The position numbers and the translations under genes are program-made. A DNA stretch of 64,000 nucleotides from a virus: the IMG/VR virus record IMGVR_UViG_3300010885_058378, positions 62,001 through 126,000 of that record; one strand, given 5' to 3'. Each line of letters starts with the position of its first letter. Positions within the stretch are counted from its first letter, which is position 1. The notes under the pieces were generated by a model. That model saw only the letters and a program-made list of their open reading frames with translations, was not told where the DNA came from and did no database searches. Shown one piece after another: positions 4,431 to 58,200 of the stretch.

Positions 4431-4440
4431 TTATCTTCTT

Positions 4441-7981: not shown

Positions 7982-8394
7982 GCAGACATTATAATATCAC
8001 ATATAAAAATTATGTGCCTAATAGTTCTAATAGCATTAATATAGATTTATCTGAACTTGATAATATAATAAATCATTCATCAGATGGAATATATTGTTCC
8101 TGTTTAAACTATATAAAGATTGAAGAAATAGATGCTATCTTTCATAAGGTTCTTAATAAAACTAAGCCAACAGGAGTGGTAATATTTAGTATCATAGATG
8201 TTAAAAAGTATTCAAATGATTTTTTACAGAACCAAATAGGTGGACAGGAATTTTTAAGCAAACTTAATGGCGTTCAATCAATACTATCTATAGAAGATAT
8301 ATATACTAGAATTGATAATAATATTTTTACAATAAAACAAATCTTGCAAGAAGGCGGAACTATTGATGTTGCCCTAGAAAGGATTAAGATATGA
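7978..8394 (+). CDS. Small protein resembling a degenerate class I methyltransferase
   Basis: A 138-residue protein with ATGA overlaps on both sides. The stretch DGIYCSCLNYIKIEEIDAIF followed by VLNKTKPTGVVIFSI looks like the part of SAM-dependent methyltransferases around motifs II-III (D-I-...-LEH-...-LKPGG), but the SAM-binding GxGxG loop is absent and the length is about half that of an active enzyme. It may be a remnant, a non-catalytic partner, or an unrelated protein. It is translated within the glycosyltransferase cluster. Confidence 0.4.
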   Translation: MSRHYNITYKNYVPNSSNSINIDLSELDNIINHSSDGIYCSCLNYIKIEEIDAIFHKVLNKTKPTGVVIFSIIDVKKYSNDFLQNQIGGQEFLSKLNGVQSILSIEDIYTRIDNNIFTIKQILQEGGTIDVALERIKI

Positions 8395-11771: not shown

Positions 11772-11775
11772 TTTT

Positions 11776-12504
11776 ATGGTTAAAAAGGAAAAGACAGAGA
11801 AAGTTGAAGAAGTTAAGGCTGACGTTGTTGATAAGAAGATTCCAAAGACTACGGATTTAGAATGGACCGATTATGTTTTAAGCCTATTATCAGAAGACGA
11901 AAAGATATCGGGCAATCCAACAACCGATGGATTAAGACGAATTTTTGAAATTGCTCTTAATTGTAGAGTTGTTGTTTCTAGTTCTAAGGTTGTACAATCT
12001 CCTGATCCAAATAACGAAAAAAGAGCCACTGTGGTTCATTCTGTTGTGTATCTTTTAAATGATGCCTCTCCTGACAGGCCTGAATTTAATACCGTGTCTG
12101 TGGATGGAGCAGCGGACGTTTATTGGGGGAACTGTGACAAGGTTTATAGGAATCATCCTGTTGCCGTAGCAGAAACACGAGCAGAAGGCAGAGCTTTAAG
12201 AAGAGCCCTTAAACTAAGGAAAGTAGTAGCAGCAGAAGAATTGGCCAAAGAAATTGAAGACAATCCAGATAACAGTAGTGTTTCTAAGATTAGTAATAAT
12301 CAGATTAATTTTATTGACGTTATGGCTCAAAGACTTAATATAAATGTGGTTAAGTTGTTTAATAATAATCAATTACCCACAGATAATGTCTATTCTGTTT
12401 CTCATGATGATGCTGTTAATATTATACGATTATTGTCAAAGTATCAACAAAATATATCAGAGATTTCAGAAGATATTATGGGATACTCTAGCGATTGGAA
12501 ATAA
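11776..12504 (+). CDS. Possible Rad52-like single-strand annealing protein
   Basis: A 242-residue protein. After a Lys/Glu-rich head (residues 1-25) comes a globular region with NPTTDGLRRIFEIAL, ATVVHSVVYLLND, DGAADVYWGNC and FP-like VAVAETRAEGRALRRALKL. The A-x-T-x-AEGRALRRAL helix resembles the AKKEAVTDALKRALR element of Rad52/22-family annealing proteins. The last 60 residues (SNNQINFIDVMAQRL, then SHDDAVNIIRLLSKY) look like the C-terminal module of phage recombinases. The gene lies with ssb and replication functions, and overlaps the end of the zinc-ribbon gene's leader. The role, annealing of complementary strands in phage recombination, is inferred; similarity is weak. Confidence 0.5.
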   Translation: MVKKEKTEKVEEVKADVVDKKIPKTTDLEWTDYVLSLLSEDEKISGNPTTDGLRRIFEIALNCRVVVSSSKVVQSPDPNNEKRATVVHSVVYLLNDASPDRPEFNTVSVDGAADVYWGNCDKVYRNHPVAVAETRAEGRALRRALKLRKVVAAEELAKEIEDNPDNSSVSKISNNQINFIDVMAQRLNINVVKLFNNNQLPTDNVYSVSHDDAVNIIRLLSKYQQNISEISEDIMGYSSDWK

Positions 12505-29100: not shown

Positions 29101-32100
29101 TTATGCTATATCAAACCAATTTTGAGAGTATCCTAACGAGCTGAAAGTAAATGAACCACCACTAACATTGTTACTTATAAATACTTGGGTAGTATTAGCT
29201 ATTACTATAATAATTCTACTTCTATCGCTTCCATCTGTATGAGTCCACACTTTAAAAATGGGACTCATATTTCCATAATTACTGAGCAGAATATTCCAAG
29301 AAGCCTTATTATCCGTTGACTGATATAGTTTCCCGTCAGTTGTTGCAATAATATATTTTCCACTACTGCTAGTAGTTACATATGTTCCATATCCGTATAT
29401 TATCTTGTCTACATTAAACATACTATTTTGTGTAGATGATGTTATAACACTCCAATTTATTCCGTTACTACTGGTCATCACATTCATTCCTGCTCCATAT
29501 GGTCTATTTCCTATTATTATAAACTCATTATTAAGATATTCTAATGACGAACAAGGCACAATTTGTCCACTAAATGATCTTACTGTCCATGTTAATCCAT
29601 CCGGTGATGTTGCACAGGAGCCTGAGTTGTCTGTAGCAGCAACAATGGTGTTGGCCCCATAAGCAATTCCTTTCCAATTAGCATAAGCTGGTAATGTAGA
29701 ATAAGTAAAATCATAAACACTACCATTTAAGAACTTAATAATAGCAACTTGAGAACTAGTATTTGATGTTAATATAAAGTTGTTATTAATAGGATCATAT
29801 GTAGAATTAATCCACAAGGCGCTAGTACTCGGTATCTCATTTGATATATCATATGATTGCCAAGTCATGCCATTATCAGTAGAATAATTAATTATATAAC
29901 TAGCATATGCTGCAGCAACGAATACTCCATTACCATAACAGATTGTTGTCCAATTTTGATTATCTGGTAAGTTCTTTAAAACAAAAAGACCACCATAGGT
30001 TTGAGATACCATAGCCTTGTTATTGCCATACGATACAGCAACAGCATTGGCTTGAGGTATAGATATTGTTGGTGTTACGGTTACTGTTGAAGTGGGGGTG
30101 GTCGTTGGGGTGACGCTAATAGTAGGAGTAACTGTTATTGGGGTAGTTGTAACAGTATTTGTTATGCTTGGGGTTATAGTAATTGTTGGACTAACACTAG
30201 CTGTTGGAGTCGCAGTATTCGTGGAAGTTATTGTTGGGGTGGGGGTGGTAGTTTGACTATTAGTTGGAGTAACGCTAATTGTTGGAGTAACTGTTGCTGT
30301 TGATGTTATACTCGGTGTTATTGTTCTAGTTGGAGTAGTAGTAGCAGTTGTACTACTAGTAGGGGTAACTGTTATTGTTGGACTAATACTAATTGTTGGA
30401 GTCGCAGTATTTGTGGAAGTTATTGTTGGGGTGCTTGTTGGCGTATTTGTTACGCTTGGTGTTATGCTAATTGTTGGCGTGATTGTATTAGTAGGAGTAA
30501 TTGATGGAGTATTCGTCGTCGTTATAGATGGTGTGGAACTATTAGTTGAAGTTACTGTATTGGTAGGAGTTACTGTTTTCGTTGGCGTTGTAGTTAAGGT
30601 AACACTCGGCGTTATGGTATTGGTAGCGGTATTACTTGGTGTTATAGTGCTTGTGTTCGTTTTAGTAGGGGTTATACTATTAGTTGGCGTATTGCTAGGT
30701 GTTGTTGTGGGTGTTTTTGTTTGTGTTGGGGTAGGGGTCAGAGTAGTAGACTGAGCAACAAAAGAGAACTCCCTCTCTGCTCCATCATAAATAACCTCAC
30801 CATTATTATTCAGTCTACCGGCTGCTGCTTTAAATGTATAGGTTCTTCCATTCACCATCCTTAATCTAACATCATTATAGTTTAGTGTTATGCTACCATT
30901 AGCATTTATGCCATCATAATCATCACTAAAATTAAGACTATCACAAGCTAAATGATAGCCACCAAAAATTGAGTTAGCAGGTATTGTTGGGGAGACAAAA
31001 TTAATTGTAAAAGATTGTGCCGATGTTGTAACTGATACAGTTGGTTGCCCTATTGGTGAACCAATATTTAAAACAGGAACAGTCAAGCTAGCAGATCCAA
31101 TTGTTCCACAATTTGTTAGATTATTATCACAAGCACTAACATAAAAAGTTACAGTACTACCAGCAGATGGAAAAGTATTAGCTTCATAATAGCTGAAGAC
31201 ACTGTTGTTTGCAGTAATACCCTCATCTCCAATTCCAGGAACACTAGACTCTACTCTATAATTAATTGGTCCTGTGTTTGTTGATAATATATTTAAGTTT
31301 TCTGGATAATTCCAGGAAATACTAAAAGATGGCTGATTATTAGTAATAATAGTTTGTACAACAATGTTCGTAGGAGCAGTTGCTGGAAGATTAGCTGTTG
31401 ATAATGATATTGATTGATTTAATAATGAAATATTAGGCAATAATTTACCATCAAAAAACAATCCTTTATATAAAGCTTGTATATTATCGTTAATAAAAAC
31501 ACTATTTTGATAAATTAATTGTCCAAGATTTACCGGACTGCACATTGATTTGCTTGGAGTAACTGTTGGAGTAGATGTTTTAGTCGGGGTTGGAGTCTTA
31601 GTATTTGTTGGTGTTTTTGTCGGGGTTCTAGAATTAGTTACAGAAATTGTTGGAGTTATAGTAGGAGTAGATGTGTTTGTTGATGACGGCGTTTTAGTTT
31701 TAGTTACACTCGGAGTTACAGTTCTAGTAGCAGTTACTGTTAATGTACTTGTTTTTGTTGGTGTTTGAGTAACAGAACCTGTAGGAGTTTTTGTTAAAGA
31801 AACTGATGGAGTAACAGTATTTGATGGAGTAAGTGTCTGGGTTGGAGTTGGAGTTGGGGTGATACATCCAAGATTCGTTGGTCCATTAGCCACACCAGTT
31901 ACTGAGTCTGCAGTTACTGATGTTGGAACAGAATCACTTTTTGTAGAATAAGTCCAATAATCAGCTCCAGTTCCACCCTTATTTGGATCATAATAAGCAG
32001 CTTTATACCATTCATTCTCTGTTGGTATCCAGTAAGAGTTACTATTATTTTTTGATGGCTTACCAGTTCCTTGTATTATAAAACCAGATAAAGAATACAC

Positions 32101-32778
32101 TCCATCCTCTGTAGTTGAGTTGGATGGAACTCCTGTTGGTTTTCCATTACTTAGCCAGTTCACATATCTTGCAACACAAAACCAATTTATAAAATTAACT
32201 GGTTTATCTCCCATGTTTGCAAGAGAAGCATAAGAATATAATCCTGAAATTCCTGATCTAGAAATGCCTCCTCTTTGTGCAATATCTCCCATTTGAGAAA
32301 CCCACAAAGATAAGCTGTTAGAAGATATTGCTACTGCATTTAAAAATTCAACATATTCATTATTAGTTATTAGATATTTTTTAATTTGATAAGTATAGCT
32401 CACAGATCCAAGATTATTATTAGAAGAGTCAGAACTATTATTTGTGTTATTAATTAAAACATAGTTCTGTGAGTCTATGCTTGCCGAACTTTTTGCTATT
32501 CTAAAACCCAAATCACTTCTTTTAGAGTCAAAGAAGTTAATATCAGCATAAGTCTTTTTTAAAGAATCTCCATTGCTAGCAAATGATCCACCTCTAAAAA
32601 TTGGATAGCTATTACTTATAGTATCTAAAAGCTCATTAACATTTCCGCTTTGATCATATGTTCCGTAGTAACTAGGTTGTCCATTTGATCCTACAGAAGT
32701 AATATTACCAGTTAAAGCATTCCATGATGCTGAATTATTATAATTAGCGGTATTACAATTATTTAATAAATAACTCAT
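29101..32778 (-). CDS. Tail fibre: permuted FGE-sulfatase fold, Thr/Pro linkers, FN3 and beta-propeller
   Basis: A 1225-residue modular protein. Residues 1-97 match the C-terminal half of an FGE-sulfatase domain (SYYGTYDQSGNVNE, FRGGSF, LGFRIA); residues 124-305 match its N-terminal half (YQIKKYLITNNEYVEFLNAV, DKPVNFINW, YWIPTENEWYKAAYY), so the order is permuted. A Thr/Pro linker, two FN3-like domains (residues about 450-670) and a second, longer Thr/Pro linker follow. The last 300 residues hold four Asp-box-like repeats (STDNGMTW, SPDGLTW, SSNGINW, STDNKASW) that suggest a beta-propeller. Start ATG 32778 follows TAAGGAAAC. The design implies host-surface or glycan binding at the fibre tip. 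Confidence 0.8.
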   Translation of the reverse strand: MSYLLNNCNTANYNNSASWNALTGNITSVGSNGQPSYYGTYDQSGNVNELLDTISNSYPIFRGGSFASNGDSLKKTYADINFFDSKRSDLGFRIAKSSASIDSQNYVLINNTNNSSDSSNNNLGSVSYTYQIKKYLITNNEYVEFLNAVAISSNSLSLWVSQMGDIAQRGGISRSGISGLYSYASLANMGDKPVNFINWFCVARYVNWLSNGKPTGVPSNSTTEDGVYSLSGFIIQGTGKPSKNNSNSYWIPTENEWYKAAYYDPNKGGTGADYWTYSTKSDSVPTSVTADSVTGVANGPTNLGCITPTPTPTQTLTPSNTVTPSVSLTKTPTGSVTQTPTKTSTLTVTATRTVTPSVTKTKTPSSTNTSTPTITPTISVTNSRTPTKTPTNTKTPTPTKTSTPTVTPSKSMCSPVNLGQLIYQNSVFINDNIQALYKGLFFDGKLLPNISLLNQSISLSTANLPATAPTNIVVQTIITNNQPSFSISWNYPENLNILSTNTGPINYRVESSVPGIGDEGITANNSVFSYYEANTFPSAGSTVTFYVSACDNNLTNCGTIGSASLTVPVLNIGSPIGQPTVSVTTSAQSFTINFVSPTIPANSIFGGYHLACDSLNFSDDYDGINANGSITLNYNDVRLRMVNGRTYTFKAAAGRLNNNGEVIYDGAEREFSFVAQSTTLTPTPTQTKTPTTTPSNTPTNSITPTKTNTSTITPSNTATNTITPSVTLTTTPTKTVTPTNTVTSTNSSTPSITTTNTPSITPTNTITPTISITPSVTNTPTSTPTITSTNTATPTISISPTITVTPTSSTTATTTPTRTITPSITSTATVTPTISVTPTNSQTTTPTPTITSTNTATPTASVSPTITITPSITNTVTTTPITVTPTISVTPTTTPTSTVTVTPTISIPQANAVAVSYGNNKAMVSQTYGGLFVLKNLPDNQNWTTICYGNGVFVAAAYASYIINYSTDNGMTWQSYDISNEIPSTSALWINSTYDPINNNFILTSNTSSQVAIIKFLNGSVYDFTYSTLPAYANWKGIAYGANTIVAATDNSGSCATSPDGLTWTVRSFSGQIVPCSSLEYLNNEFIIIGNRPYGAGMNVMTSSNGINWSVITSSTQNSMFNVDKIIYGYGTYVTTSSSGKYIIATTDGKLYQSTDNKASWNILLSNYGNMSPIFKVWTHTDGSDRSRIIIVIANTTQVFISNNVSGGSFTFSSLGYSQNWFDIA
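30065..30748 (-). repeat. Long Thr/Pro-rich repeat region of fibre A
   Basis: About 228 codons of TxTPT-type repeats (ITPTISITPS, TPTPTITSTNTATPT). On the plus strand this appears as degenerate GTTGGAGTA-like units. A similar but shorter stretch occurs at 31545-31863. Such regions usually act as extended, possibly O-glycosylated linkers. Confidence 0.9.
31545..31863 (-). repeat. Short Thr/Pro-rich repeat region of fibre A
   Basis: About 106 codons of Thr/Pro-rich repeats (TPTPTQTLTPSNTVTPS) between the permuted FGE-sulfatase domain and the FN3-like region, with the same composition as the longer block at 30065-30748. Confidence 0.9.
31864..32763 (-). other. Circularly permuted FGE-sulfatase (C-type-lectin-like) domain, fibre A
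   Basis: C-terminal half at about 32763-32491, N-terminal half at about 32409-31864. The N-half ends VTGVANGPTNLGC and the C-half begins NCNTANYNNSASWNAL, which would be consecutive in a normal domain. The joint between the halves is a short Asn/Ser-rich linker. Confidence 0.75.
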
Positions 32779-32798
32779 CACGTTTCCTTATAGGGCTA

Positions 32799-39741: not shown

Positions 39742-42700
39742 TTAATTAAACCATCCAGGACCATTATTATTTGTATCACACCACCAAGGAATCTCATTAT
39801 ATGATAGAGTGTTATCGGAACATAGCGAGATAGTATCTTCATCTAATCTTAATGGCTTAGCATTAAATGAACAACCAGCAGATATGCAACTCGCAACAGA
39901 GCCAAAAACAGAAGCATAAGGATTATTATATTGGGTTAATAGATTTATTGATGGAGATACTGTGGTTGTCCCTTGTGATGTAGGAGTATCTACCACTACT
40001 GGATCAGTTAACCCTGTAAAACTTTTTGCAGATCGTATGGTTCCGTCACCAACAACAATATGGTCAACATATAACCACCCACTAACACTAAGATTAGCAT
40101 ATAATTTTGCTGCCGAACCTGTGATATCAATACCTGTGGCTATAACTTCTGGCTCACTACGCTTAATACTTACGGTAGATGTTCCTGTAAAATCGTTAGA
40201 ATTAACAGGACGATAGTAGGCTGCCTTATGCCATTCATTAAGATTGGGCAACCAATACTTTCTATACGATGACTTAACAACATTATAAGAATTACTTCCT
40301 ATACTATATATTGTATATGCTCCGACACTTAAATTATAATCAATATCAGACTCACTTAGCGTAATACTTGCTCCATTATGTAGCCAATTAATGAATTTAA
40401 TGGCACTCAAGTAGCTAACAAAAACTACTGGTTTATCACCCATATTTGACTTTGTACTATACTCATATCCAGCATTACTAATACGAGTAATTCCTCCTTG
40501 AGCATTACTACTCATTCTAATGTCATATAGTTCACGATCATTAATTTTTGCTACTGCATTTAAAAATGCACAGTATTGTGTATTTGTTACTTCGTATTTA
40601 CCAATACGATAAATATTATTTACAACACCAAGATTATTAATAACTTGTTGAGAATAAACTGTTGGAGATCCTGCTGGGTTTTTAATATAAATAGGATTTA
40701 AATCTTCTATATTTTTAGGATTATTAACTCCAACAAAAGACATATTAAGACCATTTGTACTAGAGATATAAGTCTGGTCTGTTATACCTTGTAGACTAGC
40801 AATTCTAAACCCAACATAATTATATCCTGATGCTCTAATTAAGGACTCAATACTTTTTAAAACATTAGATCCTATTATGCTGTCATTTGCTGTAGAATAA
40901 GCTCCTCCCGCAATAAATTCTATACTATCTCTAGATTCTATTGCGTCTTGTTTTTCTATCCATTCAGCAGCATTACCGTTCTGATCGTATGTTCCATAGT
41001 AAGACGGCAATCCATTAGTGCCCACACTAGACAATAATCCAGAAAAAATATTTCTACTATTATCATATGCGTAATTTGCAGATGAATACTGGTTTGATAA
41101 TCCTACTCCTGTAATATTAATTATTGTAGAAAACATATCCGAACGACCCGTGGCAAAACCCGAATAGATTCCAGAAGGTATTAATATTCTTCCTGTATTT
41201 GCTTTAATAAATAATGCTGGATCATCACCAAGTCCATATACTGAGAAATTAATATCTTTTTGGCCAGCATTAAATGTTGTATCTACTAATGGTCTAATGC
41301 TTAAAGTATTAGAAGAAGAATTTGAAATTATTCCATCATCAACACTCTTAGTCATTGTTAAATATCCACCCTTAGTTATGGAGTAAATATTAATATTCGA
41401 TGTTGTATTTTGTACGATGCTTTCATCAACTAAAAGTCCAACAATAGCATTGCCATTTAGCTCTAAACTAATAATTTTTCTATATAAATTGGATCCATTG
41501 TATGATATTACTATTTGGTCTCCAGGAGCAAACTCATCAGAAGGAATGCTATCTGTGAAAGTAATTTGTCTTAAACAAGCTGTTGCTGTTCGTGGAGAAT
41601 ATTTCGTCCAAACTATGTCTCTCTCAGTTAAGAAATAGTCATCTAGAGTATATATTCCAGTAATTGCTCCGTTTGCTGTTGTGCTCAATAATTTATTTGC
41701 TGGAACAGGAATTCTTAATGATCCTGCTGAGTCAATACTGAGTGGACTATTAATTATTTTGCCACCAGAAACCATCAATAATCCACTAGACCCTAAATTG
41801 CTAATAGTTATATTAGATGCATCAATATTTTGTGCAGATATACTTGTTAAGTATGAGGTTCCTGTGGCGTATACTGAGGAGGATGAGAATGTTATGGACG
41901 ATTGTGGACTAACGGTTATTTGACTGCTTCCATTAGTTAATGACAAATTACCATTATTATTAATCTGTAATCTATTTCCACTATATCCAACATATGTAGA
42001 ATCTACTGTGGTTTGTATGGTTTTTATTCCTGTGACACCAGAAACTACTGTGATATCTAATGAGCCCTTTTCTCCATAAACTGTTGTATTGACTGCTCGT
42101 GATTCTATCTGGGCATAATTTGTTTGATTGCCTGTGGAGTTTTTAGCAGAAAGGTTGATCTGGGAAACTACGCTTCCACTAGCTATGTCTGTGGATGGTT
42201 TATGATAAAGTGTTATATTTGCTGGATAACAGGATGTTCTATTTTCTAGTCTTAAGCCTTCTTGACAAACTGTATTAACAATATGAAATACTGTTGATGG
42301 TCGTGAGCCTGATGGAATGTTGATTCCTACTCTTCCGTCATAAGAAAAAAATAAATTTTTATTTAATGATCCACTTCCATAAACTATAAAATCACTACCA
42401 TTACTATTATTATTAACAATAAATGGATATGTGCCACTGGTCGGTATGATAGTATCTGCGGATGATGCTGAATTTGCTCCGATAAATACTCTTTGAGACC
42501 CTGAGTCCCAATACATTTCTGCATTATTGATGTCTGCACTCATTATAGAAAAAGTATCAGAATCATTATTTAATGACTGTACGCCCATTCTTTCTGGCGG
42601 CTTATTATTTAGTACTACCCAATCTTTCCCTGTTGACGCCAATCTTGCATAATTATTAAACGAATCTAGTGTGCATACTAGCGAACCATCCTTATCGTTT

Positions 42701-43200
42701 ACAAATAATGAGTTTGATGATTCTATTAGTTTTAATTCAATAATAATATTGTTTGACTGGTCTAATGATGGAAGATTAATACTAATAGATTTTGAAGAGC
42801 AGTCTACAAGATACAAGGCGCTTATAGGATCTAAACATAAGTCTTTATCAATAACGATTGTGTTGTTTAATCCTTTATCAAAAGAACTTTGATTAGCAAA
42901 TACATAAAAGTCATTACCAGAAGATGGAAAATCTACTGTATTGTTATTATTAGATGATGAAATAGTCTCAATTCTTTTAACAACAATATTACCACTATTA
43001 TCAAATACTATTTCCCCAACACCAGTTTCAAATAAGCGACTATTTAAGTTTCTGGCTATGTAAGGAATTAAATATCCTACATGATTGGTATTAAGAATAT
43101 TATATGTTTTTATAGCAGATACTGGCTTAATAACGTCATTTTCTATAACGAAATTAAATCCAATATTATCAAATACTCTAATTGATTTATTAGGTGTCAT
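39742..43200 (-). CDS. Tail fibre with permuted FGE-sulfatase domain, 1152 aa
   Basis: The first fibre gene after the tape measure, starting two bases after its stop. The N-terminal half is beta-rich (DGRVGINIPSGSRPSTVFHI is a typical fibre shaft segment). A YSITKG domain shared with the 827-aa fibre lies at 41215-41390. A circularly permuted FGE-sulfatase domain follows: SYYGTYDQNGNAAEW and GFRIAS (40795-41085) precede YRIGKYEVTNTQYCAFLNAV, DKPVVFVSY and YWLPNLNEWHKAAYY (40205-40635). A Cys-rich tail ends the protein (CISAGCSF, PWWCDTNNNGPGWF). Probable receptor-contacting fibre. Confidence 0.75.
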   Translation of the reverse strand: MTPNKSIRVFDNIGFNFVIENDVIKPVSAIKTYNILNTNHVGYLIPYIARNLNSRLFETGVGEIVFDNSGNIVVKRIETISSSNNNNTVDFPSSGNDFYVFANQSSFDKGLNNTIVIDKDLCLDPISALYLVDCSSKSISINLPSLDQSNNIIIELKLIESSNSLFVNDKDGSLVCTLDSFNNYARLASTGKDWVVLNNKPPERMGVQSLNNDSDTFSIMSADINNAEMYWDSGSQRVFIGANSASSADTIIPTSGTYPFIVNNNSNGSDFIVYGSGSLNKNLFFSYDGRVGINIPSGSRPSTVFHIVNTVCQEGLRLENRTSCYPANITLYHKPSTDIASGSVVSQINLSAKNSTGNQTNYAQIESRAVNTTVYGEKGSLDITVVSGVTGIKTIQTTVDSTYVGYSGNRLQINNNGNLSLTNGSSQITVSPQSSITFSSSSVYATGTSYLTSISAQNIDASNITISNLGSSGLLMVSGGKIINSPLSIDSAGSLRIPVPANKLLSTTANGAITGIYTLDDYFLTERDIVWTKYSPRTATACLRQITFTDSIPSDEFAPGDQIVISYNGSNLYRKIISLELNGNAIVGLLVDESIVQNTTSNINIYSITKGGYLTMTKSVDDGIISNSSSNTLSIRPLVDTTFNAGQKDINFSVYGLGDDPALFIKANTGRILIPSGIYSGFATGRSDMFSTIINITGVGLSNQYSSANYAYDNSRNIFSGLLSSVGTNGLPSYYGTYDQNGNAAEWIEKQDAIESRDSIEFIAGGAYSTANDSIIGSNVLKSIESLIRASGYNYVGFRIASLQGITDQTYISSTNGLNMSFVGVNNPKNIEDLNPIYIKNPAGSPTVYSQQVINNLGVVNNIYRIGKYEVTNTQYCAFLNAVAKINDRELYDIRMSSNAQGGITRISNAGYEYSTKSNMGDKPVVFVSYLSAIKFINWLHNGASITLSESDIDYNLSVGAYTIYSIGSNSYNVVKSSYRKYWLPNLNEWHKAAYYRPVNSNDFTGTSTVSIKRSEPEVIATGIDITGSAAKLYANLSVSGWLYVDHIVVGDGTIRSAKSFTGLTDPVVVDTPTSQGTTTVSPSINLLTQYNNPYASVFGSVASCISAGCSFNAKPLRLDEDTISLCSDNTLSYNEIPWWCDTNNNGPGWFN
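40205..41085 (-). other. Circularly permuted FGE-sulfatase (C-type-lectin-like) domain, fibre B
   Basis: The same C-half-then-N-half order as fibre A. The halves are separated by a linker (TDQTYISSTNGLNMSF to VYSQQVINNL) that is longer and different from that in fibre A. Confidence 0.7.
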
Positions 43201-43202: not shown

Positions 43203-46200
43203 TTAAGCTTTACCCATTGGTTTGTTGTTAGCGGATGAATTAAAGGCGCCTTCAGTAACTTTTCTATCATAGCTTGCAAAAGTATTTTGACTAGCATGGC
43301 GACCAGATAATTCTCCTGCTTGTGCTGCACTACTTACTATTCTATCTCCTTCTTTTCCGAATCCTAGAAAATCAACGACGTTCTTAACTTCGCCATGTAT
43401 ATTTAAAGTATTTGGCAAATTATCAGCAGATTGTGCAAACCCAGCTGTTGAATTACCAAAAGATTGGGTTGCATTAGCAAATGTTTGGCCGAAATTATTT
43501 AATGTTTCAGTACTACTTTGCATCATTTGACTATATGATTCCATTCCTGATTGGAGTGCGGTGCTTAGTTGGCCAACTGCTTCGTTCATAGCCTGTCCTA
43601 CTGCAGTGCTAATACTAGATGATATATCATTAGATACACCACTACTACCACCACTGCCTCCAGTAACTGGTCCAGCATTGGCATAATATTTGGGTGCAAC
43701 TATTCCACCATTGGCCAAATAGTTAACAATTCCACCTCTATTGAAATGGCCACTATTTATAGCATTAAGAAGAGGCATATGTTGCTGACTAGATTCTCTG
43801 TTAACAACAAACTCTCCAGGAGTTAGCATGGCTGGTACAGTATCTGTTCCCTGAGATAATGATGGAACTAATGCTCCATTATTAGCATATACTAAACCTC
43901 CAGAATTGTAAGTAGCAGCATCATATCTTGCCGGATCACTACTTTGTTGTTGTGCTTTTTTATATTCTGGTGACTGAGTATAGTGTAATGGAATACGTCC
44001 TTGCTCCGCTAAATCATTTGCTCTCTGTTTGAATCTTTGTGATTGTTCTCTATTAGCAATATCTATTGATCCTGCTTCAGTTCCAACCTTTAGACTTTCA
44101 GAACCAAAACCGATGCTTCCTCCAACAACAGCACCAGCAGCAGGACCAACCACTGGAACAACACTTCCAGCAGATGCTCCAATTGCGGCTCCCCTAGCAG
44201 CCGATTCCATTTGTGCTAATCTTTCATCTGTATTGTTTGATATTTCTTGATTAGCTAATTTACCTATTATTGAACCTCCAGAAGATGCTGAGCCAGATAT
44301 TGCTCCGAATACAGCCCTTGTTGGAGCGCTAATTCCTTGTTGTATAGCTTTTTCATCTTGTAGTCCTGCCATTGCTCCTCCTGCTATTGCTAACACTGGA
44401 GCCATTTTACCGGCTATTTGACCAGAGACTCTTCCTGCTGAAGACAAAGATGATGAGATCATTGGTGCTGCATTTGCTGCTGTATCTAATGACGCTTTAG
44501 AAATATCTCCAATGGCCTGAGTTTTATCTAGTGATGATTTTTCATTAGATAGTAATGTTTGAGTACCAGTTACAATATCGGCCATGCCTCTACCAACTCC
44601 TGCAACCCCTTTCATAGGAGCATTAGTAGCAAAAGTTTGAGCCAATCCTAATGCTGATGATGCTGTATCTAGAGTAACATTGCCTTCATATGCTGCTTTG
44701 CCAATATCACTTACATTTTTAGCTGTCGTAGTAGCCGTTTTAACGATAGCATTTACAGAGCCTCCATCGGCAAAATAACTTACTAGTCCTCCCTTGCTAT
44801 ATCCATGGAATTTCATTAATTGTTTTAGAATACTTTCTGCTCTCTTATTCCCCTTTACTTTGCTCATGTGCTGCATCAAGGTGCTTAATAGCTCATATGG
44901 AGCTTTTTTGATTTGGCTTGCAGAATATCCTTTACCTCCTGTTATAGCAGCTAATCCCTTTGGATCATCAACAAATGACTCGATTTGTTTCATTAATCCT
45001 GAAGATTTTAGCTTTTTGCCTCCAAAAGGATCAATCTTCATTCCGGCAGTTTTAGTTTGGAAAGAATGAGCCAATTCATGCTGAACTACTGATGTTTTGG
45101 CATTAGGATCCCTAAATACCATTTTGTTACCTGAAGTAACCATAGCCTCAGGATTTTTTACTGGACCTATATTCTTAGCAACTTTCTTTTGAGCCTCAGC
45201 TAGTGCCGTAGGATCAACAGATACTGATTGTGGAGTAGACTTATCGATAAATTCTGATAAGAACTTATCCCTTCTTGCTGGAGTAACATAATCAGCCAGA
45301 TCATTAGCTAGATTCTCTTGAACTTGTCTTATATTTACTGGATCAGTAACATTTATAACTTCTGGTAGTGGTCGTTTGGTCGGTAGTACTGCTACATCTG
45401 GTTTTGTTCTGGCCATAAATTCTTCAGCGGTAACTCTGGGCTTACTAGCTCTTTTAGCGGCCTTTGCTTCTTCAGCAAGTCTAGTATATTCTGCTGCTGT
45501 TATTTTGGGTTTGACTGGAGACCCTGATGTTGGCATAGTCAAATCAATATTTGATAATTTTTCATCCAATGCTCTGCTTCTTACAGCTTTGGCTTTTGCT
45601 GCTAGTCTACCATAATTACCATCATATTCTAATGGATTAATATCGTCTATGCTTCTTATCTTTGTAGGGGCAGACTCTGCGAATGTTACAGGCTTTGCTG
45701 GTGCCATATCCTTAAAAGGAGAAGTAACATTTGATCTATTAAGATTTGGTCTTGAATAATTTGGAGTTATACCTCTAACTCCTATAACATCACCCATTTG
45801 AGTAGCAACGTCTTGAACACCCTCAACAAAATTATTAACTACTCTTCCAGCTCCGCGAGCACCTGGAATTCTACCTCCCAATCTTCCTGCTCCTCTAGCA
45901 ACCCCCGTAATAGCTCTGTCTACTGTTCCAGCAGCCCTACCAACACTAGCAGCACCAGGTATTCTACTAGCAGCCCTACCAACACCAGAAACACCAGGTA
46001 TTCTACTAGCGACTCTTCCAGCAGCCCCTGCCATTCTACCGGCAGCATTAAATACTGCTCCTTCTGCATTGATTACTGCTCCTACGCCTTGAGAGGCTGC
46101 ATATCCAGCAGTTTGGAAGCCTGCTGTGGTAAAACCTAAATAACTATCCATTCCACCAGCCAACTCTACATTTCTAGCATCATTTCTTTGTAGAGCAGTT

Positions 46201-49200
46201 TCTGTTCCATTTTGTATTGGCCCCATACCAGCAACAGCTTGTCCAGCTTCAACAAAACTAGTTGCTCCAGCACCCATAGCTCTTAGTCCAACATCGGCAG
46301 CCGCAGAAGTTGCTGCAGAATAAGCCCCCTGTTGGTTATTTAGTCTGTTGCTGTTTGCAGTAAATGTTCTTGCTCTTATAATGGCAACATCTTGAGCAGC
46401 CGCTATCTCTTGAGGAGATGGCATTGGTCTGCCATTAGCTCTAGCCTCATCATACATATTTTCGGCTGTTCTGTTTCTTAAATTATTTTCATCTCCAATT
46501 TTAACAGCTGTATCATCTCCAGACATAGCATACCCAATACCTCCAACAATAGGAGATACAACTGTTGCAACTGCTCCGGCAGTTATATTTGCCGCCCCAT
46601 AAAGGGCGTCTCCAATACCCTGAGTTACTCCTCCAACATATCCTACTGCTGCCGTAGCAGGATTGCTACTATTTATATATAATGATGCTTGTCTATCTTC
46701 TTCAGCTTTTTGTTGTTGTGCTCTAACCTTTTCTGATGCAGTAACCTGTTGAGCCCCCTCAAATTGCGCTATTGCTTCACTATTAGCTTGATCCTGTAAT
46801 AATTGTTCGGTTGTTGGAACAACATAATTTTCAAGTTTTTCCATATACGGTTTTGGCATATATTTTCTTTGTTCAGTCCTGTACTGTTCTCTTTGATCTT
46901 CTTTAACTTTTCCTTCACTAAGCAATTGATTAAATTTATTGTCTATTTTGCCTGTTTGTTCATCTATTTTAGATCGATTTCTCTCATTAATTACTTGCTG
47001 TCTTCTTTGTTTCTTATAAGCTTCTCTATTTCCTTCATCATCTCTCCATGCTCCTGATTCTAATAGCTGATTAAATTCAACATCAAATGTTTGTTCTTGA
47101 GCTGCTATTTGTGCTCTTTTTTCTATTCCTATTTTTGTACTAGTAATAGCACTGTCTGCTTCTCTCTTTTTCTTGGTATCACTTGAAGTTGTGGCCGTTT
47201 GAATTGAAGAAGATAATCCTGGACTAGCAGTTGTTCTATAAACATTTTGTGTTTCTGCTTCTGCTCGTAATTTTGGATCATTACTATATTCCAATGGATC
47301 TGTAGCACCAGCATGTTGATAAGCTATTTGACTATTAGACAGCTGATTTGGATACTTTATCATTGCCTCAGTAGCTAGTGTATTCGATGGTGATCCAAGA
47401 GGAAAACCGAAAGAATCTCTGCGTGAACTTTCTCTATCTCTAGTTGTTTTTTGAGACTCAAACCTTGGATTAGGATCAATTCCATATGCACGATAGCTTC
47501 CAGCAACATAATCTCCAGGCAATGATACTCTAGGACTTGGAACCATTGGACCAATATTAACACCTAATCTTTCATCCTTATTCTTAATTTCTGGTGTTCT
47601 CAGATTAACAGGAGCATTAGTCTGAGATGCTAATCCTTGTCGAACGCCCGAAGAGACCGCAGGATCAGTTATATCAGGTCTTGCAGTAGTATACTGCTGT
47701 CTAATTCCCGATTCGATTGCGGCATTTTGTTGGGCAGCCTGTTGCTCATTGCTTGGTCTTGAGTAGGCTTCATTTATTCTGGAGGCCGTTGCTGAATCAA
47801 GACCGCTAGGATTTACTGCGTTGGGTCGCTGAAGGGCAGGCGATTCAGAAGTTTCAGATTCGGGATTGATAAGAGGATTAAGTCTATTGTATCTGTCTCT
47901 CTTTACTCTTTTTGATGCTGCAAGATTGTCTTCAACATCTCTGGATTGAATATTATCAAGTTTTTGAGATAATGTTCTTTTATAGTTTATAGTATCTAAT
48001 CGATTTTGTTGGTCAGGAGTTCTTTTTGATGGCGGAATATTATTTAAAGCCATTTTCCTGGTTATTTCAGATTCACTTAATCCATCAATTACGGCTTCTG
48101 AATAGCCCTGTTTTGTACGCAAAGCAGCATATTCTGTTTCTTCTTCTGAACTTCTTCCTTTGCTTCCTTTAAGCCATAATGATCGTCTTCGTGACTCTTC
48201 AGATTTAATTCTTTTTCTCTCATTGATAGTTTCTTGTGTTGGTCCAACATTTATTGCCGCTCCTCTGCCCCAAGGTATTTTTGTCATAATCGGTAGAGGA
48301 ACTGCTACTGGAACTGGTTGTTCCATAGGGCTTTGAGCCATTTGATTATTTGATGCTTCAGTTTCAGCAGCACTGGCTTTTTCAAATCTTTCTTTAGATC
48401 TTTTCTTTTCTTCATTATAAAAATTAACTCCAACAATACCAGAGTTAGGATCTTCCTTTATGCTGTCATATCCTGAATTATTAGCACTTCTGAGTTGTGC
48501 ATCAGCCTTTCTATTATTATAATTATCCCATCTATTTTGAAATTCTGGTTCATATTTTTTGGCTTCTGATTGTCTTTCATCCTCTGTCATACCCATCCAT
48601 CTACCATCACCTACCTGAGATTGTGCCCAACTAGATGATGTTCTAGAAACTACCTCATCAGGTCTTCTTCCAGTTGCCTCTGACATCATCCATGATTCTT
48701 TTTGAGCATCTATTCTTTCTTCTTTTCTTTTTTGTACTTCGCCACCATCTGCTAAATAAACCACTCCGCCCTTACTATAATTTCCACTATTAATAGCCTT
48801 CAATAGTGGTAAGTGTTCTGAGGTTGATCTTGCATTAATCACAAACTCGCCCGGAGTTAACATAGCAGGAACAGTATCAGTTCCTTGTGGTTGGAAATTT
48901 ACTAATTGACCTTCACTAGCATAAATTAATCCTCCGCGAGCCTTCGGAGGAGCAACTGGGGCGGCAACTCCGATATTTAATGGAACTTTAGCTCCGCCAG
49001 GAGCATTAATTCTACCCTCATTCATATCATTATTAGCCATGCTTGCTTCAACAGTTGTTCTAAGATCATCTATACTAACCTTAAGGTTGGCATTTGCTGA
49101 TACTAGAGCCTGCTGAGATTCTAATAAAGCCAACTCTCCTTGTGCCTTAGTAGCGTCAGCCTGCAATCCAACAGACTGTAAATACTTACCAGCAGCTTCT

Positions 49201-52200
49201 TGCATTGCGGGATCAGCTTTAGGATTTTCCATAGCAGCTATTGATTGCTGAACAAGAGGATTATTCATCATTCCACTCTCGATAGCCATACTCTTTGTTA
49301 ATTGTAGTTGTTGTTGTTTAAAATAATCAGCAACAGCTTGGTCAGCACTTACCCCAGGCTTTCCTTTACCCTGAGCATATTGATTTCTAATATTTAGCTC
49401 TTGAGCCGCTTTTACTCCAGGATCTTGTGATAGGGCCAGTGTTTCTTTTCTTTGATTGGCTAATACTGTGTTGCCAGCCTTAGTAGCTTCTCTTACGCTT
49501 CCTGTTTCTCTTAATGTTTGATTAAATGCCTTACGAGCATCTCTTTGATTACTAGCACCATTTAATCCTCCAGAAAGATTTCTTTGAAGTCTTATAAATG
49601 TTTTATTAAGTTTGTCGGCTTCTTCTGGAGTATTTGTTAGTAATGTATTAACAAAACTTTCTCTATTCTTCTGAAGATCTCTAACATTCTTTAAATCATC
49701 AAATGCTTTTTCTACTAATTCTGTGCTACTTGCTAATGTGTCTAAAGCTTCTCTTGTATCTCTTAATTGATCGTCTAATGATCTTAGTTGTATAGCAGAT
49801 TTTTTAAGTTCATCAGGATCGCTCATGCCCTGTCTTTTTTCTTCTACTGCTGTTCTTTGTGCTTGTAAGTCAACAATTCTATTTTTAATTCCACCAACAG
49901 AGGTTTGTCCACCGGCTAATCCGGCCACATCACCCATAACTCTTGCTTGTTTCTCACCATAAGTTTCGCCAACTCCGGTCATAACCTCTCTAAGATTTCT
50001 ATTCCCTTGGGTGCTAATATCTCTAGATTTCTTAAAATAATTCTGAGAATCTTTTGCTGCTTTACTAGCATCTCTAAGACCTTCGGAGAAATCGGCTAAT
50101 GCCCCTTGCTTAAACGATGATAATGCTTTTACTGCTTCAAGCGTTTTAACTCCAAAGGCCCCAAGAATATTATCAGCCTCTCCTAATCCTTCTCTAAAAG
50201 CGTCTAATTCTGCTTGAGGCGTATCATTTTTTTTCTTAGATTCTTCTGCTAAATTATTTATTCTTGTTTCTGCTTGTTTTTTAAGACTTGTCTTTTGTTC
50301 GTCTGATAAGTTTGTTTTATCTATTTGTTCATTAGTAGTTTTAATAGCCTCTGTTTTGGCTTGATCAACGTTCAAATTTGCATTAGTATTTAATTTTTCT
50401 GCTATACTTTTTGTTATAGCATTTGGTAATTGTTGTTGTAGTTGTGCTCCGCCTATTAACTGGTTCCTAGTTTTTTCATCAACTCCTGCTGTTGCAGACT
50501 GTAAGGCTTGATTAAAATCTTTTTCAGAATAGGCATTTGGATTTTCAAGAACATTTAATTCTCTTAGCTTGGGTCCACGATCTTGTGATTCTCCTCTTAA
50601 TGCTGATCTACTTTCTTCGGCTGATGATTTTCTAACATCAGATTCGAATTTAATTCTATTAACAGATTCACTAATAATACTTGATAATTTTTCAAAACTA
50701 GCTGCTAGTTTTCTGCCAGCTTTGTCTGCAGCCTCTAAAGCATCAGACATTTGTTTTGTTTTTATTGCAGATTGAACCTGAACATTTGTCAGTATTTTTT
50801 GATTAGCAACTTCATCTAATATTGCATCTTGTTTTTCTTTAGAAACCTTCTCATACCCACCTTCTTCCATAATTCTTGCTCTAACCGTTTTAAGAGCATC
50901 TTCATCTGCTAATACTAATGCTCTTCTAGCACCAATTAATTCTTTATCTGCTTGTATAGATTCTACACTAGCTCCAGTATTAATTTTTTGTGATATTAAA
51001 GCAAATGCCTTGTCTCCACTATCAGCATTTCTTTCAGCTATCTTGCTATCTAATTCATTAAAATCTTGAGTATCCATCTTCGGCTTTTCTGCTCCGGATA
51101 GAAACTCTGTCCATGTTCTGGTTTTACCCTTTTCATTTTGTGCAACCTTAGTCTCAGCAGAAACAGCTTTTAGAGATGATTCTGATGATCTAACAAGAGC
51201 CTTATCTAAAGCCTTTTGTAGATCTATATTACCAATATCTTTCTCAAAATCCTTGAAAGCCTTAGCTAAATCTTTTTCAGAAGCGGCCACTTCTTCAAAT
51301 CGTAAATTCTTTTCCATTTCTAGAGCAGCAGTTTTTTGTGCTCCAGTAAAATCAGTAAAATAATCAGTAGTAGCATAAACTACTGTTCCTAAAGCCGCTA
51401 ATCCGCCTAATAGAGGATTTATAGCCATTAATTGAGAAGCAGTAGTTAAACCAGTTGCTAGTGTTGATCCGGCCTGTTCAATAGCGGCACCCTTACCAGC
51501 AGCAGCAATCTTTCCTTCGTCTGTGGAAGTATCATACATTAGATTTGCAATATTTTTCCCTTGTCCACCAACTAATCCTGCCACCATACCAACGTCTCCC
51601 AAAGCTGTTCCAATTCCTTGAGACGCTGTTCCTGAGAAGTATCTTTCTTGAACAGCTTTTTTAATAGGACTATTTCTCCAATCAGTCAACCCACCAGCGC
51701 CAACTCCTTTTTCGCCCTGCTCTTTGGCCATTTCATTAATCATTTCTCTTCTTTTACCAACTTCTTCCTTAGCAAGAGAGAGTGCTTCTGATGCTGATTT
51801 GACTGAGACACCTCTAACAGTTCCAGCATTCTTATACTCTTCTAATCTCATTGCAATAAGCTGCTTATCCATCTGGGCCAATGTTTTACGATCAGTCATT
51901 GACTGAGAAATATAGCTTTGAATATCAGATCCACCAATACCCATATCCGATAATTCTGATTTTTTAATTCCTGTAACTTTTTGAGTAGCACTACTAAAAG
52001 ACATTTCTTTTATTTCTTTGGCCTGTTCATCTAATCTGCGTTTAACTTCTTCTTTAATTTGACTAGCATTACCAAATGATGGTCCGTATCCTCCTGGTCC
52101 ACCGCTAAGACTTTGTGTTAATTGCTTCTCCCTTTGTGCTTTAATACTTTTTTCTATCCTGTCGGCTTCTGTTAAAATGGCTTGCTGGGCACCACCAGAA

Positions 52201-55200
52201 CCAAGAACTTTACCCTTTTTTGATTCTTTTAATCCTGCTTCTAAAAATTGTCGTTTTACTACTGCTGTTTTAGCTTGATCTCTAACATTCTTTAATGCTT
52301 TTTCTGCTGCTATTATAGTGTCTATTGATGCTCCAGTAATCTTGAGTCTTTCAACATCCTTAGTCATTGCCTTTTCAATATCTTTATAAGATATGTCAGC
52401 TCCTGCCCCAACTTGCTCAAGAACTTTCTTAAAGCTTATCATACTATAACCAGCTTCTTCAAACCCTTTTGTTAATAGTTTAATATTATTAACTAGTTCT
52501 GATGAAGCTTCTATACTTTTACTATCAATAGTTTCTGGTCTGGTTTTTAATTTTTGAACTGCTGGTTCAGCAAAACCTTTTAATGCTTTCATTATTTCTT
52601 CGATACTAAAAACACTACCTCCAGTAGCAAATCTTTGAATTACTCCTCCACCAACTACTCCTCCCTTATTATAACCCTGTAATTTATCCGCTTTATTTAA
52701 TGTCTCTAACTTGCCATATCCTATTTTTTCTGCTGCTTTCTTATTAACAACAAATTCACCAGGAGTTAATAATGCAGGAACAGTGTCCTTTGATGATATT
52801 CCTGCTTGTCCTCCTTGAGCAAAGGTCTCGATATTGGTTGGCTTCAAGGGAGATGATCCAACATATTTTAATGCTAATCCTAGTGGTTTTTCAAAAAGTT
52901 TGGATTCAAATGAATTTATTAATTCGGGATCTCCAGATTGTATTCTGGACATAAGTTGACCCAATAAAGCCCCTTCTCTTACATCTCCTTCACTTCCGGC
53001 ATAAATAGATTTTCTTGATCCTCCAGGCAAGGTAAACTCTGTTCCATCTTCGGATTTTAATGTTTGAGATCCTTCTTGAACACGTACTCCAACCGACATC
53101 ATCCCAGCATCTGGATTTTTATCGAACTTACCTTTTAATCCTGTTTGATTTTCAGTAGGAGCATATTTATCTTTAAGAGTATCGTAATTATCATGCATCC
53201 ATTGTACCACTAGTCCTTTTTGTAATTCATAATCTAAATCATAAGTTTTTGGATCTAAAGTTTCATCAAAACTTAATACCATTGGCTTTCCTGATCTATC
53301 TCCTTGAGCAACAGTGAAGTTGCTTCCTCCATTAACTCTCATCTTAGCTTGTTGTTCTGCTTTATTCTTTTCTGTATATAAGTAGAATCCTTCTCCTTGA
53401 CCATATCCTTTAGCAATATTAGAAAGAGCGCCCTTTTCTTTAAAGCTTTTTAGAACGCTATCATCAACTCCAGTATTGCTTCCGTGATATAGTTTAACTT
53501 TTCCTCCAGTAGCATATCCTCTATTTTTTCTCCACATTTTTTCATCATTAGTTTTGGTCTCAAACTCTTTTGGCTTGCGACCTTGTTTTTCCATAGCCTC
53601 TTGTATTCTTTTTTGTTTATTAGCCTGGGCAAGTTCATATCTTTCTTGTTCTGGTGATGTTTTTTTAGATGGTATTAGTCCAAATCTTTTGTTTATCTCC
53701 CAGTCTGGAATAGCATAGTCTTTATATCTATTATCTAATCGTTCTTCTAATTTTGCTGTGAGTTCTTCTTGGCTCATGCCCAAAGTCTTTGCTCGTGCGG
53801 CAATATCGGGTGGAGAATATGATCCTCTTACCCAGCCACCGTCAGAAAGCATTTGTATGTCTTCTTTGACGGGTTCTGGAATTCCATATTGTTGTCTAAA
53901 ATGTTTTTGGAATTCTTCAACAGCCTTGCCTCTACTATTACTATCTATTGTTCTTTTAACTTCTGTTGGAATATCAGGATCGATACCAAATATTTTTGCT
54001 GCTTTAGGTCCGATTCCCATTGGGAAGTCAATCGGACGAGTTCTTAAAGCATCATCTAATATTGTAGCGTCTGCTGATCCAAAAATTTGTTCTAGTAAAG
54101 CTCCTTCAATATTACCTTGACCTAATGTTTCTCTTTGTTTTTTACTTAATTTCTTTGGTTCTATGCCAAGAAGTTTTGAAGCTCCTCCTACAATTTCTTC
54201 TGTTTGACCACTAAGATAATCAATTACATTTTGATATTGATTTGGTAATCCTCTCTGAACTATTGAAGCATCTATTGATCTTTCTTGTCCAGACGAATCA
54301 ACTCCAAGATTCCAAGTTTCTGGCCCTAGTAATCCAGTATATCCCAATGGATTTAAGCCTACTAATCCTAATTGTTTGGATGATAATACAGCATTAGTTG
54401 TTTCTGCTAAAGTTGTAGCCTTTTGAGTTCCTTGTGATTGTTTAAATTTATCTATTAAGTAATCTCTTGTTGCAATATAGTAGGCCAGTTTATCTGCTTT
54501 TGTTTCTGGTCTAAATGCAGAATTCCAGTATTTTAATTTTCCTCCTTCAGCGGTATCTCTTACTGTTTTTCCTGAGAATGGACCAAAACTTGCGTCATTT
54601 GGTAATCTGTCTGTTCCAAATCTTTTTAATATCTCTGTTCCTTGTGCTGGTAATATCCCAGAAGACTTCTTGACCTGAGTGGCCTTTTCTACATTTTTTA
54701 GTATAGCCTCTTCTAGTCCAGAAGGCATTGCTGTTGGAACTCCGCCAAATTCACCGGACATCTGTTCTGATAGTTGTGCTGCTATGGCTTCTTTTGTTAT
54801 GTCTGATGGTTGTGTCGATACGGCGGATTTTCTTGATGGGTCTAGTCCATAAATTTCTGGATATTTTGCAGATAGGGCGCTTATTATATTAAATGCTCTA
54901 TAGCCAAATGCTCCTTTAGATACTCGGTCTCTTTTGTCCCTTATCTGCTTAACTTGATCAGCTATTTCTGGATAATTTTTCTTTAAATCAGCACTAACAT
55001 TACCATAAGGACCACCAGGAGCATTTGATAATATTTGTGAAACCTCATCATTGGATCGTATTTTTTCTTGATCAACAAATTTTTGTATTTCTTCTATTAG
55101 CATAGGAACCATAGTGCTACGATTACGCAATTGTGATCTATTGCCCATTAATATTGATGCTATATCAGGATTCATTAAATTAGCCAGCGATTTATCATCA

Positions 55201-58200
55201 CCATGAAATAATGCGTCTCTAACTGCAGTAGCACTAATGTCTTCTATTCTAGGAATATCTTTAACATCTATTCCTGCTCTTTGGTATTTACCTAACACTT
55301 TATCGTCTTTACCAGAGGTTATTGCCATAGCTCCTTTTAATCTAGCAAATTTTCTTCTATCTCCATCGCCAATAACTTCCATAAATTTTGGTAAACTACC
55401 GGCAGGCTGACCTTGGGTGCTAATCATAGCATTTCCAAAATTCATTTTGCTGAATAAGGTCCTTATATCTGCTGGAAAAATACCATATCGCGCAGCATGA
55501 TCTATGCCTTCTTTACCAACAATCATTGGAAGATCAGGAGCAACACTAACAAGAATATCTTCTAAAGAAGAGCTTGGGTTCTTTGCTAACATATTTTCTA
55601 ATAAAGTATCTAACGCTCCTCTATGACCTCTTGTTGGTGGGGCAAAACCGCCCATATAAAATCCACCAGCCTGAACTATTTCTGGTAATTCATTCTCTTT
55701 TTTACGCCGTAAGCCAAAACCATCTGATTTTCTTCCTAATACTGTTGCCTTTTTTCCAAGCTCATCTCGTAATATTGTTTCTTCCAAACCAAAATCAGTA
55801 TCAGCTCCTCTTGTGGTTCCTGGTTTACGACCATATAGCCCTTGTCCAGTAGCGTCTCTTTGTTCTCTATTTGCTCGTAATTTTTCTTGTTCTGATTGAG
55901 TATTAGAACTTAATATATATGCTCTATCAACATCTCTTAAATAAGCATCAAGTTTGGATTCACTAGCAGTTGATGTTATAGCAATAACTTCATTAACTTT
56001 ATCAATATCTTCAGGAGTTAATATTTGGGAGCGAATTGTTTTTCTTAAAGAAGCATCATCATTGGCGCTAAATCCTGTAGCCAAACTACTTTTTCCACTA
56101 CCAGCAGCACCAGCGATTGCTGTTAGTCTTGACAAAGAACCAGTTTTTCTTGCTTTAGCAGATAGTTCTCCTAGTTTTGTTGTATAGTCACTAACATCGG
56201 TTATTCCTAGTTTTTCCATTGCTTTATCAACAATACTAGCATTTGCTGGATCTCTAAGAACATCAGTATCAATAATTCCAATTTTTCTTTCTACTTTTCC
56301 ACCAGCAGCATAAGTTTGTCTCTGAATACCAGCACTACCCAATAGATCAGTTAGTGTAGAATCTAAAGCTCCTTGAAGATTACTATCAAGTCTAGGATAG
56401 TTCTGAACTAGTGTTGTTAAAAATTCTTCTTTCCCACTATCTTCTATTCTATCAATATAAGATTGAGAAATACTATTATCTAATAATGCCTGATTAACTT
56501 CTGGATTTAATGGTTTAAAATCTTTAGCCTTTTTAATACCAAGAGATTTTGCCCAAAGAGAGGATGCGGCGGTGGCTGCTTCGGGAGTTTTAGCAGGCTT
56601 GTCTCCCCTGCTAATAGATCGATTTTGTTGTATAATTTGATCTAATGTTCCAACTTTGTATGAACGTCCATATACAACATCCGAACTGTTATAGCTAGAC
56701 TCTAAAGAATCAAATGCATCCGCTAAATCATTATTGTCTCCACCAAATAAAGAAACAACTCTTGATTTATATTTATCAAAACTCTCTGATGATCGTGTTC
56801 GTAATCCTTGAAATAATTGGTGGGTCATTTCGTGATAAAAAGTATCATTTTTTCTACCAGAAAGTCTTCCGGTGCTCATGGTGATCGCGCCACGGCCAGT
56901 AGCTTTAGCTGTGGTTTGCATCTGATCCATGGCAGTTAATTCTGCTTGGTTTTTTAATTTTTTAGTATTAGATATCTTCATTTGAAGATCATTAATCTCA
57001 TCCCAAGTTTGTTTAGCTAATGCTTCATCATATGAAAAAGATCCGTCATCAAAAGTTTTTACTTGTGTTTTTATTATTTTCTTCAATTCTTTTTGTTTTT
57101 CTGCTACTAATTTTTCATATCCATAAAGATCCTGGTCATTGGCCTCTGTATATCCAGAACTAGATAGGTCATAGCCAGATGTTCTTTTGGTGCCGGTGCC
57201 AGTTCTATCGAATTGGCCAAGACCTCTTAATCCTAAATCAGTAAAATCAATATGATTTGGTAGAGCTAATGATAAATCTTCTCTAGGCAGTCCTATGAAT
57301 TTAGCAAAGTCGCTCATTCTTCTATAAATAGCGCTATTAGCTAATTTACTCTTGAAAGAATCTGCAAACTGCTTTCTATCGAATGGCATTGAGTCAAAAG
57401 CTTCGGTTGCTTTTGCTTGATCCACTTTGAATCTAAAGTCTTCTGGATATTCCAAGAAGGATCCTCCACTAAAAGCTTTATCAACTTGTTCTTTATTTAG
57501 CTTGGCGTCTATTTCTTTGAAATAGGCATTACTAATTCTTTTGGGAAATGGAAAAGTTCCACTTCCAAATGATCGGGTTTCTTTTGCTTTTCCTCCGACC
57601 ATGAACCTGGCCAATCCTTTGGTTTCTTTCATCTTCTTTACAAAACCATTGTCATCCAGTGTAGGTATTTTTCTTGTTCGTCGTTGTATTTTGTTATTAA
57701 TAATTCTATCTGGATCACCTTCTGGAAGATAATTAAACATATAATCATCTCTAATGACTCTATCCCAAGATGATGTTTTCACATTCCCAAATCCTTCATT
57801 ATTTTGCATTATTTTTAATCTGTTAGCTAATTTATCAGATTGTATAATATCTTGTCCTGGTCCAGTTCCGTGCTCCTTGGCTACTGCTGCTTTAATTAGT
57901 GTATCATTTAATGATTGTAATTTAAGAAGGGGTCTTCCATAAACATCAACCTGATTTGTATCTTTAAATGCTTGCGATACATTTTCTGCTCCTAAATCTG
58001 TAATAAAGTCAATAGTTATTTGCTTAGCAGCTCTTGCCTTCTCTCTATTGCTAGCAGAGGCTGGTCCACCAGAAGCCCCATAAACTTCTCTTTCTTGTTT
58101 AGATAATCTCATTTCAAATGCATCAACACCATCTAGCCTTGAAGATGTTTTGAATCTACCTTGCTCTTTAGGGTATAATAGAGTTTTATTATCAGGTTTT

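Follow-up and report, generated by a model that had tools for sequence, protein, structure and literature searches.

A gene here termed fibre A occupies positions 29101..32778 of the minus strand in a stretch of 64,000 nucleotides (the window) that corresponds to positions 62,001 to 126,000 of the IMG/VR virus record IMGVR_UViG_3300010885_058378. At the extreme N-terminus of its product lies a domain of the formylglycine-generating enzyme (FGE) type of C-type lectin fold in which the C-terminal half (C-half) precedes the N-terminal half (N-half). At the level of the sequence this circular permutation is shown, while the packing of both halves within one chain is strongly supported and not proved. 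A preliminary description of the window had read the domain in this way, and that reading is now backed by rotation of the domain against a sequence profile, a predicted single-domain structure, a contrast between fold searches, a conserved short linker and paired cysteines at the new ends. Fibre A and a second tail protein, gene B, each probably contain an intramolecularly folded, circularly permuted FGE-type C-type lectin domain serving as a tail-displayed, ligand-binding (adhesin) module. No earlier report of a natural circular permutation of the C-type lectin/FGE fold was found in the open-access papers searched.

The rotated domain of fibre A

The open reading frame (ORF) called by program spans 29101-32781 on the minus strand and 1226 amino acids, with a probable start at the ATG at 32778, 7 nt downstream of an AAGGA sequence; the product matches PHROG 15511. 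The C-half, comprising canonical segments 4-5, is placed first at residues 9-97 (32488..32754, minus strand, as are the parts of fibre A, gene B and the tape-measure gene given below) and displays in order the motifs ANYNN, YGTYDQSGNV, FRGGSF and GFRIA. A new short linker at residues 98-105 (32464..32487) then leads from the old C-terminus, the GFRIA strand, to the old N-terminus, the YVLI strand. The N-half, comprising canonical segments 1-3, follows at residues 106-296 (31891..32463) with the motifs YQIKKYLITNNEYVEFLNAV, PVNFINWFCVARYVNWLSN and PTENEWYKAAYY in that order. The domain is bordered by two cysteines that are candidate partners of one another, Cys8 at its N-terminal edge (32755..32757) and Cys305 at its C-terminal edge (31864..31866). 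The motifs are thus present and rotated as first described. Two small points of that description need correction: the end given at the time for the extent 31864-32763 falls 15 nt short of the gene start at 32778, and the genome contains two such modules. Cys305 is followed directly by the first of two threonine/proline-rich (T/P-rich) linkers, and the protein continues with a fibronectin type III (fn3)-like region and a C-terminal repeat region. The two linkers, which are long and of the type TPTxTxT, surround the fn3-like region within 30000-31860, and similar linkers border permuted modules in other phages.

The Pfam family PF03781 (FGE-sulfatase) matches fibre A in two pieces. The downstream part of the domain corresponds to profile positions 36-140 (E 1.8e-9 in the search of its own record, 8.5e-12 in that of the protein), and the upstream part to positions 159-255 (E 1.1e-4). 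A normal-order reference profile, built from an alignment of 32 cellular relatives in normal order, likewise aligns residues 7-98 with positions 195-288 (77.6 bits) and residues 102-299 with positions 8-194 (215.6 bits). Each part of the profile is therefore represented exactly once, with a cut at 194|195 that leaves neither gap nor overlap. When the letters of fibre A are reordered by rotation, these two matches are replaced by a single uninterrupted match of 292.6 bits, and among all rotations tried the top scores were obtained with cuts at residues 96-105. The earlier claim that the end of the N-half and the start of the protein would join without gaps is consequently correct far beyond chance. 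The module of gene B behaves similarly, scoring 201.4 bits when rotated against 154.9 as it stands. An assembly artefact does not account for the rotation, as the same order is found in approximately 105 viral ORFs from many independent assemblies.

An AlphaFold2 model of residues 1-305, computed from an alignment with 47 permuted homologues, forms one compact and confident domain (mean predicted local distance difference test score, pLDDT, 90.3; predicted template modelling score, pTM, 0.91). Two partial domains that fail to pack, the outcome which the preliminary description had set against its own reading, did not occur in this model. Foldseek alignments are bound to chain order. With the permuted model as query, the best PDB match was TvpA (2y3c; 102 columns, TMq 0.23, E 9.8e-3), and the top matches, TvpA and a human FGE paralogue, covered 102-104 columns with TMq of 0.22-0.23 and E of 0.01-0.02. 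The cellular relative L056, modelled as a normal-order control (pLDDT 82.9, pTM 0.88), returned the same first entry over 292 columns, with a TMq of 0.50 and an E of 6.8e-10. A match to 2y3c of approximately 100 columns as opposed to 292 is as predicted if chain order alone differs. Neither a phmmer search against PDB sequences nor a BFVD fold search gave a match. Permuted modules accordingly escape annotation, as Pfam and Foldseek detect one half at a time.

Distribution, end cysteines and origins

IMG/VR was scanned with three queries, the domain, an alignment and a variant module, which found 51, 76 and 65 partly overlapping loci, respectively. Order was read with five segment profiles numbered as in the normal domain. 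The viral order was 45123 in 110 modules, and the cellular order was 12345 in 73, with a further nine in tandem (1234512345 or nearly so). This search for other permuted members, as had been proposed at the outset, thus led after removal of duplicates to approximately 105 viral ORFs with approximately 126 permuted modules; 91 of the 105 ORFs hold a single module, and up to four occur per protein. The permuted order was absent from the best 80 cellular loci ranked by similarity to the permuted query, a ranking in which a collinear permuted cellular protein would come first. Normal order was read in three contigs listed as viral (L045-L047), which are short, encode proteins with PEP-CTERM-like ends and are probably cellular. 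In L010/L151, one normal-order module stands beside a permuted module within the same protein. A tblastn search of INPHARED (50,697 phage records) with either of two modules found no relative. T/P-rich low-complexity sequence flanks the modules upstream in 109 of 183 cases and downstream in 160 of 229.

The linker between the old termini measures 6-13 amino acids in 118 of 119 phage modules, with a median of 9. Four permuted modules (L005:2116-5937, L140:602-4945, L141:1021-4944 and L004:1-3537) carry 260-280 residues inserted exactly in this new linker, a sign that entire additional domains can be accommodated at the tip of the hairpin.

Many phage modules possess one cysteine near the new N-terminal end, in ANFNN(C)ADW, and another near the new C-terminal end, in PT(C)V. 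Both are present in 36 modules, neither in 51 and only one in 2 (Fisher p 7e-23), one of these two having its cysteine shifted by one position; none of 38 cellular modules has either. A recount with a cruder second parser gave 35 modules with both, 42 with neither, and 4 and 1 with a single cysteine (p 1.5e-17); on inspection, four of the five discordant cases were parsing shifts or insertions, leaving L048. These p values are descriptive, since the counts span related sequences. The paired positions are approximately 25 residues apart in the normal chain and at opposite ends of the permuted chain, and their co-occurrence at the two ends supports the packing of the two halves. Among proteins with several modules, the state of one cysteine agrees with that of its partner in the same module in 10 of 11 cases and in the preceding module in 8 of 11, a small sample that would favour folding within a module.

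The domain of fibre A is without this pair; its ends are marked instead by Cys8 and Cys305. The fibre A subclade (L004, L005, L006, L049, L135 and L140) shares this arrangement, with one cysteine at xxCNSANYN and one directly before the T/P-rich linker. Under a looser definition of edge cysteines, a C-terminal edge cysteine occurs in 21 of 25 modules that have one at the N-terminal edge and in 43 of 90 that do not (p 0.0013); this definition also took in a local downstream cysteine pair, which lowers the concordance, and the counts at exact positions are preferred. We infer from these patterns that the end cysteines form a disulfide clasp in many members. Modules lacking the PT(C)V/ANFNN(C) pair include five with the pattern PxxVC...GDG...C at the new C-terminal end (L188, L145:4977-8810, L006:7615-11361, L248 and L147), which perhaps represents a local disulfide.

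With respect to origin, five cellular tandem proteins of the order N-C-N-C (L055, L059, L060, L080 and L096) have linkers of 11-12 amino acids at the same place, such that dropping the first N-half and the last C-half would give the phage form. The permuted modules of L052-L054, which share a PGTTIGS..NQANY motif, group with related cellular proteins and with the L010/L151 module of normal order in a clade of high support (100/98). In approximately unbiased (AU) tests that included the cellular relatives of L052 and used full searches under two models, forcing L052-L054 together with the main permuted clade was rejected both under LG+F+G4 (delta lnL 63.9, p-AU 1.5e-4) and under the C20 mixture (delta lnL 52, p-AU 4e-4), and the tests did not reject one origin for the main permuted clade (p 0.46 and 0.37). 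Tandem or partial modules that had been misparsed (L087, L040 and L048), and had inflated the counts of tree changes over 202 rows, were left out. Independent rotation in viral proteins on at least two occasions is therefore supported. Additionally, L210 and L212 have a different cut site and the order 34512; they retain the phage-type 5-1 linker along with the 3-4 junction of the normal domain, which would fit a second cut in a ring that had closed beforehand.

Role of the module and alternative explanations

In the FGE-type C-type lectin proteins of diversity-generating retroelements (DGRs), the two termini form strands that pair with each other, beta1 at the N-terminus and beta5 at the C-terminus. 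Insert 2 separates helix 2 from strand 2, and the binding site is the segment between strands 3 and 5; in several of TaqVP, Mtd and TvpA, insert 2 contacts the variable region (PMC6328139). By homology to these three proteins, the new ends of the phage domain are predicted to open in insert 2, the loop that leads from helix 2 to strand 2. The preliminary description had suggested that the rotation might turn the variable face outward on the fibre. The phage domain resembles Mtd, TvpA and TaqVP in its predicted fold type and in its hypervariable loops between strands 3 and 5. It differs from them in that it is rotated, its variable loops are internal rather than C-terminal and no reverse transcriptase was found. 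Sequence variability in the permuted domain peaks in two loops of the C-half, one following GNVxEW and the other between RGGS and GFR; in DGR proteins with this fold, these loops make up the binding site (PMC6328139).

The closest normal-order counterparts come from Planctomycetota and Verrucomicrobiota: secreted FGE-sulfatase-like proteins that frequently have PEP-CTERM-like ends and are 41-79% related. With up to 48% identity to the fibre A domain, and with a normal-order profile that spans the whole phage domain, they show that homologues exist from which the permuted form might have been drawn. They differ from it in their order, 1-2-3-4-5, in having no paired loop cysteines and in not being tail proteins.

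The likeliest role of the phage module is that of a ligand-binding adhesin on tail fibres or the tail tip. In the mechanism we propose, a normal domain would have been duplicated in tandem and the pair would then have lost its first N-half and its last C-half, with the old terminal strands beta5 and beta1 closed as a hairpin through the linker of approximately nine residues. In many members, a disulfide would clasp the new ends at insert 2. A ligand of the host surface would be bound by the loops between strands 3 and 5. Strung on both sides in the fibre, the domain would be held by its side loop, insert 2, and pulling would not unzip the terminal strands. That the permutation was selected for this mechanical hold is the least certain step, and the advantage conferred by rotation is itself something we infer. 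We offer only tentatively the broader proposal that phages repeatedly permuted a cell-derived C-type lectin at two cut sites, sealed it by a hairpin and clasped it by disulfides for serial carriage along fibres, with the halves in one lineage maybe contributed by neighbouring genes. With its two or more origins, its second cut site, its cysteine signature and its neighbours in tandem and in mixed order, the viral family as a whole offers a natural setting in which to test why fibres favour permutation.

Several observations weigh against this account. Cellular relatives show as much variability in their C-halves, and variability alone is thus no sign of receptor selection. The model of fibre A falls below a pLDDT of 50 only at residues 299-305, a region that includes Cys305. 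It is also a model of a monomer, with which a swap among the chains of a trimer is therefore compatible. Finally, a single origin survived an AU test (p 0.47) on a quick tree of 61 rows, from which the cellular relatives of L052 were absent.

The main rival to selected permutation, which we consider somewhat unlikely, is that duplication and truncation in repeat-rich fibre genes merely shifted the boundary of the domain with no functional gain. The cellular tandem proteins with their 11-12 amino acid linkers make this path short, and the T/P-rich flanks recombine easily. However, selection is suggested by the occurrence of at least two independent permutations plus a re-cut form, by a rotated order that is near-complete in the viral set and absent from those best 80 cellular loci, and by the addition of cysteine pairs at the new ends.

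It is improbable that the rotation is only apparent, with the C-half of each domain completed by an N-half that belongs to a different chain or to the preceding module. Proteins with several modules do run N-half, spacer, C-half, an arrangement that might represent normal domains carrying very large inserts, and two loci (L048 and L275) have an orphan N-half gene two genes upstream of a protein that starts with an orphan C-half. Against such a swap, a single C-N unit is all that most of the viral ORFs contain (the 91 of 105 noted above), the linker between the old termini is short and hardly varies in length, the monomer model folds confidently alone, and cysteines pair within the module even where neighbouring modules differ, albeit in few cases. 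The short, fixed linker and the pairing within modules likewise argue against a trimer swap. The orphan halves lie at L048:5416-6810 and 8093-12502 and at L275:3962-5188 and 6497-8590. In both loci the orphan C-half is followed by an Ig-like insert and then by a normal-order N-C unit, and the cysteines of the orphan halves, PEC and NNC, are both present in L048 and both missing in L275. In these two loci, separate proteins may each supply one half of a single domain.

That the permuted domain is the target of a DGR, its variable region having been moved inside the protein, is very improbable. The fold type is that of Mtd, TvpA and TaqVP and the corresponding loops are highly variable, but no reverse transcriptase (PF00078) was detected in the 131-kb record or in 39 related records, which may be incomplete, and the differences between close pairs are not concentrated in the C-half. 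On these grounds, and given that cellular C-halves are as variable, this candidate was rejected.

Formylglycine-generating enzymes (SUMF1/FGE, PF03781) possess a homologous domain, of which, to our knowledge, no permuted form is known. In human FGE the catalytic cysteine pair is located between RGGS and GFR. An enzymatic role as a formylglycine-generating or related enzyme, suggested by the Pfam name and the homology to PF03781, is the least probable reading and was rejected for fibre A, whose rotated domain is without these catalytic cysteines and has no cysteine between RGGS and GFR. Of 83 permuted modules, just one has two cysteines in that interval.

Gene B and the surrounding genes

Gene B (39742..43200) encodes the second tail protein and lies directly downstream of the tape-measure gene. 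Its permuted module is internal, with the C-half at about residues 715-801 (40798..41058) and the N-half at about residues 855-998 (40207..40638). The tape measure protein (43203..60131; 5642 amino acids) matches PF10145 (PhageMin_Tail) with an E of 2.8e-24, and such a match is found in 20-21 of 36 related records. Both fibre A and gene B are situated within the tail gene block, in which a neighbouring gene matches minor tail proteins. The length of the tape measure protein, 5642 amino acids here and 3074-7577 in related records, implies unusually long tails.

Elsewhere in the window, the DNA polymerase is seemingly split, with ORFs at 550-1437 and 2315-3940 matching positions 407-610 and 622-1052 of phrog_405. 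Between them lies an ORF of 231 amino acids (1611-2306), perhaps an intron or an inserted gene. The polymerase has less than 30% identity to its matches, which are spread over many phages.

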